Of a stretch of DNA of 30,214 nt, positions 5,285-30,214 are shown one piece after another. The DNA comes from a virus. Made by a program: the position numbers and the translations under genes. The first letter of the stretch is position 1, and every line of letters begins with the position of its first letter. The stretch lies in the IMG/VR virus record IMGVR_UViG_3300045257_000155, positions 1-30,214 of that record. One strand, given 5' to 3'. Under the pieces are notes generated by a model that was given only the letters and a program-made list of their open reading frames with translations, did no database searches and was not told where the DNA came from.

Positions 5285-8200
5285 TTATGGGAACACTGTA
5301 GCCTGTACTGCCAGGGTTTGCAATCCGTAAACCGAATCAGTTACTACATCGATACCAAATGGCGTCAAATCAGACTTAAGTGAAGTAGAGTAGCCATTGC
5401 CTGGACTCTGGCACATGCGAATCAGTGCATACGGATTGCTCGTACCATTCAGCGGGTAGGTGCCCGGGTCGTCAAAGGCCCAGGCCATGTAGCCGAGTTG
5501 GCGGGCGTTGCACACCCCCATGAACTCTAGCGCCTCCATATTCGTAATAGACCCTGCTGCGCTGCCCACCATCCACGCGGGGCCGTATTCTCCAATGATA
5601 AACGTCGGGCCGTTGGCCCCGGTTGCCAGAGTATTCAACGACGTGGCAAGCCCAGTCATGACGCCCGTGCGGGTGAAGCCATAGACGTGCAGGTCGAAAA
5701 CAACGTTCTTCTGAGAGTCTGCAGCCAGCACGGCCGGGCTGTGATTGAGGAACGTCCAACCGACGCCACCAGTCGCCCCATCTTGACCAGATCCCGGGGC
5801 GGACAAAGAGATCGGGCACCTGTAGCCAGCGGTTCTCAGCATGCCCACGGCTGTGATGCACGTATCCCGCCACACAGTATTTGAGGCCGTGCCCGTTGGT
5901 CCCCACTCGTTGGCGATGTTAAGTATTAACCAGCGTTCGTAGATACTCCAGCTCGAGTAGGCATCTACCCAGCACTGCGCCGCCGCAATCATGACCGCCG
6001 GAATCGTATTACCAGACATGACGACGTAGTACAGCATCGAGTTCGTAGAGGCTACCGTCTGCACCGAGCCACTGATGGTGTAGGTGCCTTCTTTGCCCGG
6101 AATGCCCGACCCGTTGGTGTTCGTGAGCTGCACCGTGATCGTCGGTCCGCCCGTGACACCGGTTCCCGTCAGCTTTGTTTGGCTGTTCTGGTTGGCGCCT
6201 ACGCCGATCGTGCCGGAGGTGATTGCTGTCACCGTGAGCGTGTTGCCACTGATACTGCCGGTGAACAGGCACTTCAGGGCCCCGATAGATGGCATAGGCA
6301 CCACCTTATTGGTGGCAGAAATCATGTCGTCAATGATAGGCTTGTTCTTCGTAGTGAAGTCTTGAGTCAAATCTGTGAACATGCGCTGGGAATTGGCCTT
6401 CGTGTTGAATAGACCAGCCGACGCACTTCCTGCGGCATTGGCATCCCAGTGCAAACGATTAGCTCCACGAATTCTAAACCTAGTGCCGTTAGCATCATAG
6501 AGTTCCCCGTTAGCCGTCCAGAACCCGATGCCGGTGCTGGCTGCAGGGCGAGACATAGAACCTGGGGCGGTGAGCGCAGTCTGAGAGATACACGCGCACG
6601 TGCTCATCGTCTTAACGATGCGTAGGGTCGTTGAAAACACCGTACCGTAAGCCGTTAGATCACCAAAGGCAGACGACGTGTAGGTTCCAGGAGCGACGAC
6701 GGTGTCGATGTAGTGCGTTCCAATAGATGCGCGAATCTGAGTGACAGCAAACGCCGTGAACCCCGCGTTCTGCGTTCCCGTCGGAGATGCAGAAATAGTA
6801 TTACTATTTGGTGAAGCATTCGTCAGCACTGCCGTCTGAGAGATGTTAGTGTTACTTGCTGCGAACTCTTGACTGGCGAAATTGCCCTGAGACGTGCTGC
6901 CCCGGACGCTAAAGAAAGCCCCAATGTCCCCCGTGACAGGGGTGTAGGTCGCGCTCGTAGCTCCGCCAATCGAAACCGCACCACTGCCCGTGTTCTTGTA
7001 CCACTGCTGACTGGAGATGCTGCCCGTAAGACCAGGAATAGAATACTTAAGCGGAGTGCCAACCACTGGAATCGCTGTAACGACGGCCAGCAGTGGGGGG
7101 CCTGGAGCGACAAATGTCGCTGCAATTAGCGTGTAGAACATTGACCGGGTGAAGATCAGCGGCAAGACAACTGCGTGTAGTTGCTCAAATGCCGTAGGCC
7201 CCCAGCCACTGCCAGACGTCCAGACCTCAACCGAAGTAGAAAGAGTGTTGGGAGCCCAGTTAAACGTCGCATCTGTGCTGAAGTTAACCGAGCCACTTTT
7301 AGTATCGTAGGCAAGCTGATCTGCCGCAGCAATATCCGCCGCTGCCGTGATGCGGCCTGCTGTCGTGGCATTAGGAGTCGTAAGGACGACATACGCCCAT
7401 CCAGACTGAGGATTTAGAGTCAGCGCAGCGCTGTTAGAGGAACTACCCGCGTTATTGGTGACAGAAACAGTCGTCGCGCCATACCCGAGAGTGCCTCGGG
7501 AAGACGTGAATGTGATGGAGGTATCTGCCCAGGAAGTAATCGCCTGAGATACACCACCCAGTGACACGCTGCCGGCGCCCTGAGTAGCCCCAAAATTCGT
7601 TCCCGTGATCGTTATTGCGCCGCCATTGTTAACCGTGGACGAGCTAAGGCTGGTGATAACTGGCGGAGTTACTTGGGCGTTCGCCTTAAATGCGACGATT
7701 ATCGCACCGTACTCACCCGTCGCGCCAGACCACGTCCAAGACGCAGAAACTGCAGTCGTAACAGAAACAATGCTGTAGCTGGTGCTGCTGCAGACGCTAG
7801 TATCAGAGTGCTGCTGAGCACCTAGTGTCGTGTAGCCCGAGGAGTTAGACACCCCCATGGCTGCAACGCTGTTCAGCCCCGGACCAGTTACGGTCGTGAA
7901 TATGATTGAGTTTGCATTCGCCAGGGTCGTTGTGCTTCCAGTGCTGCCGCCAGCGCTGTTACTAGACCCTGCTGCGGTCTGAGCATGTAGCTTATCGAAC
8001 GAGCCGCTTGTGAATCCCGAATTGAACTCGTGGATACGGGCGCTCATAACGCCACCAGAGGAACAGGTCAGGACGGCAGAATGAGCTCCCGAAGATGCGT
8101 TCTCTATATAGTAGACAGCGACGCCTGTGTCGTAGGAAGTGACGCCCTTACAGGCGACACCCGCAGGCGCGCCGCCTGCGGGCAGCGTCCACCCACTCGC

Positions 8201-27242: not shown

Positions 27243-27803
27243 ATGGCAACCAAGCAAGTCCCCAAGGGCACCATGCCCGCCACCCGTAAGGCCCCCACTG
27301 CAGCACAGCAAATGGCAGCAGTACTGGCCAGCGCTGCACCTGCAGCCACGCAAGGCCCGGCGCCCGCAGCCATGCTGCAAGCCCTGGGTGCACCCGCTAC
27401 CCTGGTTGCCGCAGTGGCTGCGCAGCCCACCGCGCAAGGCCCGCAGGCACCTGCCACGCCCCTGCCTGCCAATTGGGTGGCAACCGCCCCCAGCGCTGCG
27501 GCAAGCCAGCAAGTGTTCGCGGCCTACAAGCTGCCCAACAGCTTGCAAAGCAAGGGTGCCAACCTGTGCGGTGGCAACCTGCCACCCGCGCTGCAAACCG
27601 CCAAACTGCTGCCCGGCAAGCCCTACGTTGCCCGCAGCGGGCATAACGCAGCCTGGGCCGCAACCTGCACAGCCATGGCGCAAGCCGCAGCCCCCACGGG
27701 TGGCGTGCCCGCTACCGAGCTGTTGGCTGCGGGTGTGGGCGCCCACAGCATTGCAGCCTACGTAAAGCGCGGCTGGCTGGTGCGCACTGCGCAACCGGCG
27801 TAA
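27243..27803 (+). CDS. Ala/Pro-rich protein with possible C-terminal winged-helix region
   Basis: A 186-aa protein with AAAGG eight bases before its ATG. About the first 90 residues are low-complexity Ala, Pro, Gln and Thr. The C-terminal 60 residues are more ordered: AWAATCTAMAQAAAPTGGVPATELLAAGVGAHSIAAYVKRGWLV reads as helix, helix, then a recognition-helix-like IAAYVKRGWLV, suggesting a small winged-helix DNA-binding fold, by appearance only. Codon use is strongly skewed to GCC/GCA/CCC/GGC and differs visibly from the operon to the left, which may mean recent acquisition. A GCAA-capped hairpin follows the stop. A role as regulator binding the palindromes just upstream is an inference. Confidence 0.6.
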   Translation: MATKQVPKGTMPATRKAPTAAQQMAAVLASAAPAATQGPAPAAMLQALGAPATLVAAVAAQPTAQGPQAPATPLPANWVATAPSAAASQQVFAAYKLPNSLQSKGANLCGGNLPPALQTAKLLPGKPYVARSGHNAAWAATCTAMAQAAAPTGGVPATELLAAGVGAHSIAAYVKRGWLVRTAQPA

Positions 27804-28242: not shown

Positions 28243-28262
28243 AGCCCCGCTCAGTCGGGGCT
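28243..28262 (+). terminator. rho-independent terminator
   Basis: AGCCCCG and CGGGGCT form a 7-bp stem around CTCAGT, followed by TCATTTTGTT. It closes the plus-strand unit that begins at the Ala/Pro-rich gene. Confidence 0.75.
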
Positions 28263-28660
28263 TCATTTTGTTCGTATTTGTTCGGTGAACGGATCGCCGA
28301 CTCCTAGAATCACGTTTAGGACTACAGAGATTCCGGTAACTCGCGCATGTATGTGAGAGGTCGTTGTATACAACGCTGTTGCAAAGTGTTACGTTTGTTG
28401 CACTTAGACTCAGGTTTTTGGATGATTTGTAACCGAACGTATAAGAATTGTAACAGAGTGTTACAGATCAGAGTCCAACTTCCTAGAATCGGGGATTCGG
28501 GCCACCGTTTTTAGTAGCAAAATTTGCTCCAAAATGCCCGATTTGAAGCATACCATGCTAAGACCCTACTGACAGAGTGTGTAATCTTATTACGTCAAGT
28601 TAGTGCTCACTAGCGATAAACTCAGTCCTTGGGATCCAAAAGGGTTCATTTTTCAGCAAT
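28263..28660. other. non-coding AT-rich region with a series of short palindromes
   Basis: No credible gene. Perfect palindromes occur at 28362-28375 (CGTTGTATACAACG), 28449-28465 (TGTAACAGAGTGTTACA), 28516-28528 (AGCAAAATTTGCT), 28547-28559 (AGCATACCATGCT) and 28581-28593 (GTAATCTTATTAC). A possible promoter, TTGGAT at 28418 - 16 bp - TATAAG at 28440, ends four bases before the second palindrome, but nothing obvious is encoded downstream. Together with the adjoining inverted repeat this looks like a cis-acting replication or regulatory zone. Confidence 0.6.
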
Positions 28661-28993
28661 CGTAACAAGCTCTGTTGTCAGGGTTTTAGCTTGTACGGCA
28701 CACCTGTACAAACGTTAACTATACGGTTTTAAAGGAGAAAAGCTCCAAACTGTAACAACGTAGCCACTACTTACCCCATAGCTTATGGGTAAACATAAAT
28801 GGAAGGAAATTATATTGATACCTCATACAGACCTTTACACTCATTGAATATACACCTTATTATTTTTCTTATCTCTTAATACCTTTATAATAGTTACTTG
28901 TTACATTTAAGAGTATTTCTCCTTTAAAAACAACCACTTAGCGTTTGTACACCTCTTCGTAACAACCACAAACCCTGACAACAGCTTGTTACG
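28661..28993. repeat. 333-bp imperfect inverted-repeat element, candidate replication origin
   Basis: The outer arms, CGTAACAAGCT..GTTGTCAGGGTTT at 28661-28686 and its reverse complement at 28970-28993, match over 24 bp with a 2-bp insertion in the left arm. Moving inward, TGTACAAACGnTAA, TTTTAAAGGAGAAA and TGTAACAA also match on both sides in order, so each arm is about 100 bp. The central 130 bp is very AT-rich with a CCCATA-GCT-TATGGG palindrome (28775-28789) and a TATAAT on each strand (28886-28891 plus, 28809-28814 minus). No gene fits. Origin, mobile-element remnant (MITE-like) and divergent promoter hub are all possible; no target-site duplication is evident. Confidence 0.75.
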
Positions 28994-29135
28994 ATGCCCT
29001 CATTTCCGCCCACTAGGCTTAGCCCCCACCCTACGCACACCCAGCAAGGCCCTCTACAGCCCATCCCTTGCGCTTGAGCACCCTACCAGCTACCCTACTA
29101 GCCACCTAGCCCTTAAACGCAACCACGGACCGCTA
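28994..29135 (+). other. C-rich, G-poor leader before the 156-aa gene
   Basis: The plus strand is strongly pyrimidine- and C-rich, with repeated CCCTAC, CTACC and CCACC words. An in-frame TTG at 28986 would extend the following gene through this stretch, giving a low-complexity, Pro/Ser/Thr-rich start without a Shine-Dalgarno, so I treat it as non-coding. Confidence 0.4.
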
Positions 29136-29664: not shown

Positions 29665-30214
29665 ATGACCCCCACCGTGTACACCAAGCGCAAGCCCCTG
29701 CGGGCGTGGCACTTCCTTGACGGAGACAAGCTCCGAGATGGAACCACCGCACCTCCTGATGGAGTCTGGCTGGATTATCCGGGCAAGCCAGTCATGTGCT
29801 GGCGGGGCCTGCACTTCAGCACTGACGTCCGAGACGCACTGTCCTACTCCCCGGGCACCACGCTCTGTCTGGTAGACTGCGCGGGACAAGGTCTCATACT
29901 CGGAGACGACAAGGGCGTGTGCAACAGCCGGCGCATCGTAGCGAGGATGGATTCCAAGCCTCTGCTGCTTGACTGGGCGCGCTGGTGCGTGTTGTCGGTT
30001 CTGCATCTGGCACCGGAAATGCTTGAGATCGTCTACAACTTCTTGCTTGGCGATGATTCCACAGCCACAGCCACAGCCGCGCGCTACGCCGCCACCGCCG
30101 CCATCGCCAGCGCCGCCGCCGCCGCCGCCGCCGACGCCGCCTACGCCACCTACGCCGCTGCCGACGCCGCCACCGCCTCCGCCGCCTACGCCGCCGCCGC
30201 CGCCGACGCCTGCG
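29665..30214 (+). CDS. partial phage protein with C-terminal alanine repeats
   Basis: The gene starts at the ATG at 29665 with GGAG about ten bases upstream and runs off the window without a stop (183 codons visible). The first 100 residues (TKRKPLRAWHFLDGDKLRDG..., VMCWRGLHFSTDVRDALSYSPGTTLCLVDCAGQGLILGDDKGVCNSRRIVARMD) match the pattern of a recurrent phage family: a small N-terminal domain with AWHFL, GLH and DDK..., then Ala-rich arrays. From about residue 135 the sequence is almost pure Ala with Tyr, Asp, Thr and Ser, encoded by GCC-rich triplet repeats. Function of the family is unknown to me. The 3' end lies outside the window. Confidence 0.72.
   Translation, partial: MTPTVYTKRKPLRAWHFLDGDKLRDGTTAPPDGVWLDYPGKPVMCWRGLHFSTDVRDALSYSPGTTLCLVDCAGQGLILGDDKGVCNSRRIVARMDSKPLLLDWARWCVLSVLHLAPEMLEIVYNFLLGDDSTATATAARYAATAAIASAAAAAAADAAYATYAAADAATASAAYAAAAADAC

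Follow-up and report, generated by a model that had tools for sequence, protein, structure and literature searches.

A candidate iteron-flanked, AT-rich replication origin linked to an SF3 primase-helicase in uncultured tailed phages

We propose that a long imperfect inverted repeat with an AT-rich centre, carried by a viral DNA of 30,214 nucleotides (IMG/VR record IMGVR_UViG_3300045257_000155, positions 1 to 30,214, hereafter the window), is the replication origin (ori) of a tailed phage: an iteron-flanked, AT-rich element that would be opened by a phage SF3 helicase. We put the probability of this reading, which is drawn from sequence, at about three in four. The original prediction had named three possibilities for the region. 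The best supported of them is now the origin with an unwinding element, favoured by a conserved symmetric architecture, variable iterons, the AT-richness of the centre and an association with an SF3 helicase gene, while the other two, a MITE-like remnant and a divergent promoter hub, fared poorly (see below).

Anatomy of the element in the window

The region had been described as a gene-free imperfect inverted repeat of 333 bp (28661-28993), with four blocks matching in order on the two arms and too ordered for chance. All four blocks were found again and their order is kept on both arms; the repeat itself thus stands, although its exact limits differ (28659-28995, 337 bp). After reverse complementing, the arms are about 76% identical over about 100 bp (self-comparison match, E 6.5e-15). 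The inverted-repeat alignment score, 190, is far above those of 1,000 dinucleotide shuffles (mean 32, sd 6.5, maximum 76), and positions 28357-28985 are free of ORFs of at least 60 aa. The 139-bp centre is AT-rich, as announced (31% GC), and contains the expected small palindrome, or rather near-palindrome, TTACCCCATAGCTTATGGGTAA. The centre also includes the GC minimum of the window over 100 bp (22%, at 28834), compared to 55% for the window as a whole. Self-comparison revealed no second copy of the arms in the contig. Positions of all features are given in Table 1.

Table 1. Features of the candidate origin and its surroundings (window coordinates)
Feature	Position	Strand	Basis or remark
Conserved neighbour gene	27243-27803	+	homologues beside the element in relatives
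Terminator-like hairpin at the end of the upstream + strand genes	28243-28262	+	
Further iteron-like 8-mers TTGTAACA, TTGTAACC, CTGTAACA, TTGCAACA	28377-28466		left of the repeat; putative part of the element
Left arm of inverted repeat	28659-28758	+	self-comparison, block alignment
Iteron GTAACAA	28662-28668	+	
Diverged core, left arm, ending GGTTTTAAAGG	28718-28735	+	weak matrix score, 11.6 bits
Iteron GTAACAA	28752-28758	+	
AT-rich centre, candidate unwinding element	28759-28897		31% GC
Small near-palindrome in centre	about 28770-28791		read directly from the sequence
Right arm of inverted repeat	28898-28995	-	self-comparison, block alignment
Iteron GTAACAA	28898-28904	-	
Conserved core, right arm, AGTGGTTGTTTTTAAAGG	28921-28938	-	within the 25-bp exact match to L050
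Iteron GTAACAA	28959-28965	+	
Iteron GTAACAA	28986-28992	-	

Two kinds of short sequence recur in the arms, a core and an iteron. The iteron GTAACAA is concentrated in the element, which holds five of its seven copies in the contig compared to 0.08 expected by length. Two details count against the origin reading: one of these five exact copies points the ‘wrong’ way, and the left-arm core of the window is diverged. So does the lack of DnaA boxes in the element; the only perfect box of the window lies within the gene for the terminase small subunit, at a distance of 4 kb. A pattern derived from the outer block, CTGTTGTCAGGGTTT, gave 60 matches and was treated as chance.

The structural genes of the window are on the - strand and include those for the terminase large (24299-22686) and small (24978-24277) subunits, a portal-type connector (19397-17418) and the major head protein (16186-15215). 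The product of the conserved neighbour gene on the + strand gave a sub-threshold match only, to AbiEi winged-helix families (E 0.03). No SF3 helicase gene is present on the window contig, which stops 1.2 kb past the element, within an ORF whose long repeat is alanine-rich (GCC/GCN; 29665-30214). The contig of a close relative, L050, likewise starts in an alanine-rich repeat, which suggests that assemblies break there; this may be why replication genes are missing from the window. The downstream ORF used as query retrieved no relatives, and nothing useful came from comparing the nucleotide sequence of the region directly with phage and plasmid records.

The same layout in relatives and its link to a primase-helicase gene

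The search of related phages called for by the original prediction was carried out with a terminase protein as query and yielded 68 related IMG/VR loci. The same layout, with an iteron sequence that differs between genomes, is present in many of them: an AT-rich centre, a related core (consensus AGTTGTTGTTTTnTAAGG) on one or both arms, and short iterons mostly in opposite orientation on the two sides of the centre. It was read in L015, L013, L030, L048, L051, L014, L017, L004, L055, L026 and L022, and a homologue of the window's conserved neighbour gene lies nearby in most relatives that carry it. L050, on a 58,964-bp contig (G001) with conserved structural genes, has an exact 25-bp stretch in common with the right arm of the window. 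G010, the contig of L020, carries both arms of a stronger inverted repeat (score 284), and the inverted-repeat scores of six relatives exceed their shuffle maxima (G010, L015, L013 and the helicase-linked L268, L284 and L277). The symmetry is not uniform: L050 and L031, the closest long relatives, have one clear core arm and little symmetry, which counts against the origin reading. When the core pattern was searched in all viral contigs, the only new contigs with an inverted core pair among the matches listed were L187 and L260, apparently the same region.

Some further observations concern the surroundings of the element in single genomes. A perfect DnaA box, TTATCCACA, is found close to the element in L022 (about 7641-7649; L273 3518). 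Genes without Pfam or PHROG match lie directly beside the element in L013 (1859-2224, 121 aa) and L030 (5513-5935, 140 aa); their products could be auxiliary origin-binding proteins. One relative, G002, is complete, with a 127-bp end repeat. Its GC skew has a minimum at 12.2 kb and a maximum at 51.6 kb, the element being at about 16.0 kb; there is no clean skew switch at the element in G002, where skew largely tracks gene strand and an alanine-rich gene.

The gene linked to the element encodes an SF3 primase-helicase. In L014, L051, L004 and L055 the element starts shortly past the end of this gene, whereas one small gene intervenes in L013 and L048; it is immediately 3′ of the likely initiator gene in L004, L014, L055, L277, L279 and L283. 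In G001 and G002 the helicase gene is about 10 kb from the element, a distance that counts against the origin reading. Helicase relatives were also sought independently of the terminase. A core matrix built from the earlier, mostly terminase-linked loci was tested on 13 helicase loci outside that set, and in 11 of them a core match of at least 15 bits lay 82-1,721 bp from the SF3 helicase gene, compared to a background of 12 such matches in 537 kb. In the twelfth locus, L280, the match reaches 12.5 bits and lies 92 bp from the helicase gene; the thirteenth, L274, has iterons and no match to the core matrix. AXL_3, ctUtU524 and PW916, cultured or named phages whose primases are related, gave no core match.

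The helicase of the relatives matches DUF5906 (E 1.5e-18), a DUF3854 match being below cut-off. Its AlphaFold2 model (mean pLDDT 86) matches the helicase region of NrS-1 and, at lower rank, the SaPI5 primase-helicase and SaPI PriRep1; a profile search returned the same NrS-1 entries. The C-terminus shows a winged-helix-like secondary-structure pattern in the confident full model, the model of the isolated domain being poor, and this domain has no sequence match in the PDB. A genome collection searched with the helicase alignment gave no relatives. The close relatives also encode a family-A DNA polymerase and have structural genes in common with the window; G002 encodes a PD-(D/E)XK nuclease in addition to the polymerase. 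We infer that the phage of the window, whose contig ends so soon past the element, has an SF3 helicase as well.

Private iterons and a proposed opening mechanism

Each genome has its own repeated 7-9-mer within the element. The window and L050 have TGTAACAA (GTAACAA in the window), G010 has TGTAGCAC, L015 TGTAAGAG and L030 TGTAATGG. Among the helicase loci, L276, L283, L284 and L274 have GGTGGCAG, L280 has GGTAGCAG, L279 GGTAACGG, L281 GGTAGTAAG and L278 TGTACCAC. As in the window, these iterons are concentrated in the element. Within nearly every genome, one iteron is common to both sides of the AT-rich centre, mostly on opposite strands; in L277, with the centre set at the AT minimum of this analysis, the left side is without iterons. 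The two arms change jointly from lineage to lineage, as a single initiator with sequence specificity would require.

Iteron consensus sequences, aligned by us with free choice of strand, were compared with the helicases. Iteron distance is correlated with the distance between helicase C-terminal domains (Mantel P 0.0002). With ATPase-domain distance taken into account, no coupling specific to the C-terminus was detected (partial Mantel r 0.06, P 0.28), so that the coupling of iterons and helicase is inseparable from phylogeny at this sample size.

In the proposed mechanism, the phage SF3 primase-helicase would bind the short iterons of both arms, probably via its C-terminal winged-helix-like domain. 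The inverted arms would set two helicase assemblies (hexamers) face to face across the AT-rich centre; the centre would melt and the helicases would move away from it with one fork each. The SF3 protein itself would provide the primers and the phage family-A DNA polymerase would extend them, giving bidirectional replication. We also suggest, tentatively and with rather more doubt than confidence, a two-layer origin code in these uncultured tailed phages. The core AGTTGTTGTTTTnTAAGG, shared by nearly all lineages, would be one layer, perhaps a loading or melting signal, and the private iteron, changed jointly by the arms, would be the other, so that a helicase opens its own origin alone.

Alternative explanations and known origins

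The same repeats could be operators for a phage repressor or activator, and the AT-rich centre could hold the promoters of an early gene to the right (first ATG 29136). Such a role in transcription control would suit the codirectional downstream gene of the window, a sigma-70-like match in the centre (TTTACA-18-TATTAT, 28834-28863) and the small adjacent gene without assigned function found in some relatives. We regard it as unlikely: promoter matches are at chance level (2 found versus 1.5) and the linked gene encodes a helicase, not a regulator. The divergent promoter hub in particular loses ground because the element is flanked by convergent genes in five relatives (L004, L013, L014, L048 and L051) and so has no gene to drive there; in the window too, the gene on the left reads toward the element. 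A centromere-like partition site or a pac-like packaging site, at which a phage protein would bind the inverted repeats, appears improbable. The element is noncoding, single-copy, symmetric and a few kb from the terminase genes, as this explanation would have it, but none of the examined proteins was recognised as a partition protein and the tie to the SF3 helicase gene holds in contigs that were not found via the terminase.

Folding of the region, proposed as a check in the original prediction, gave a single strand far more stable than shuffles (z -10.5), which could point to a structured RNA or a hairpin in an untranslated region. This strong fold is, however, a direct consequence of the inverted repeat. 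The region has no Rfam match, its iterons change in step on both arms, and its position between convergent genes in relatives also argues against an RNA, for which we see very little chance. Hardly any remains for a MITE-like or other mobile-element remnant. Long imperfect inverted repeats are indeed compatible with it, but the internal architecture is conserved, dispersed copies are absent, and the element, present once per contig, keeps its place with respect to a conserved gene in many genomes.

In the best reading, the candidate origin would work like those of SaPI/PICI satellites and of P4, as judged from layout and gene linkage. PICI and SaPI origins (pri-rep-ori) are defined by two iteron sets around an AT-rich region (PMC6092414), with element-specific iterons and a link to an SF3 primase-helicase initiator, and the SaPI Rep C-terminal domain recognises the downstream origin (PMC7581432). 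The resemblance of the phage helicase model to the SaPI5 primase-helicase and PriRep1 goes in the same direction. In contrast to satellites, which use a helper phage, we are dealing here with a full phage having its own terminase, portal and capsid genes; its element has long imperfect inverted arms and an extra conserved 18-bp core, and the position 3′ of the initiator is not found in the window lineage, where the origin is apart from the helicase gene. For this reason, a full phage with a separate origin, we did not file the element as a PICI origin.

The P4 origin consists of two sites, ori and crr. Its initiator, the alpha protein, is a helicase-primase like the candidate initiator here and binds origin repeats through a winged helix (PMC4234260); the likeness to P4 ori is one of layout and gene linkage. 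The same source proposes the use of a stem-loop beside a related protein in pRN1 and Bordetella phage BIP-1. These cases (pRN1, BIP-1/BPP-1) have a long stem-loop near the gene of an SF3 primase-helicase with a C-terminal winged helix. The window element has strong hairpin potential and may be comparable, its putative helicase gene lying outside the contig. pRN1 differs in having no iterons and a primase of archaeo-eukaryotic type, whereas our element has prominent iterons and a long spacer separating its arms. Compared with the available portions of the SaPI/PICI, P4 and pRN1 descriptions, the long inverted arms and the shared core appear as additions.

Two cultured or named phages show comparable structures. 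In BPP-1 (NC_005357, 26592-26724; L296 1593-1725), the DNA about 450 bp 3′ of bbp29, the primase gene, contains an inverted repeat that is AT-rich at its centre and has paired inverted TTTGCCTCG repeats; it is possibly the origin of this cultured phage. In Pseudoxanthomonas phage PW916 (L292 2949-3086), an inverted repeat with an AT-rich centre and without core match lies between the terminase and primase genes.

Few phages have mapped replication origins. The element described here would be an origin that sequence alone suffices to recognise in a large group of uncultured phages, together with its likely initiator, which makes origin specificity testable. Finding this layout in full-size phages would widen the picture drawn from satellite origins, and may hint at where satellites got it.
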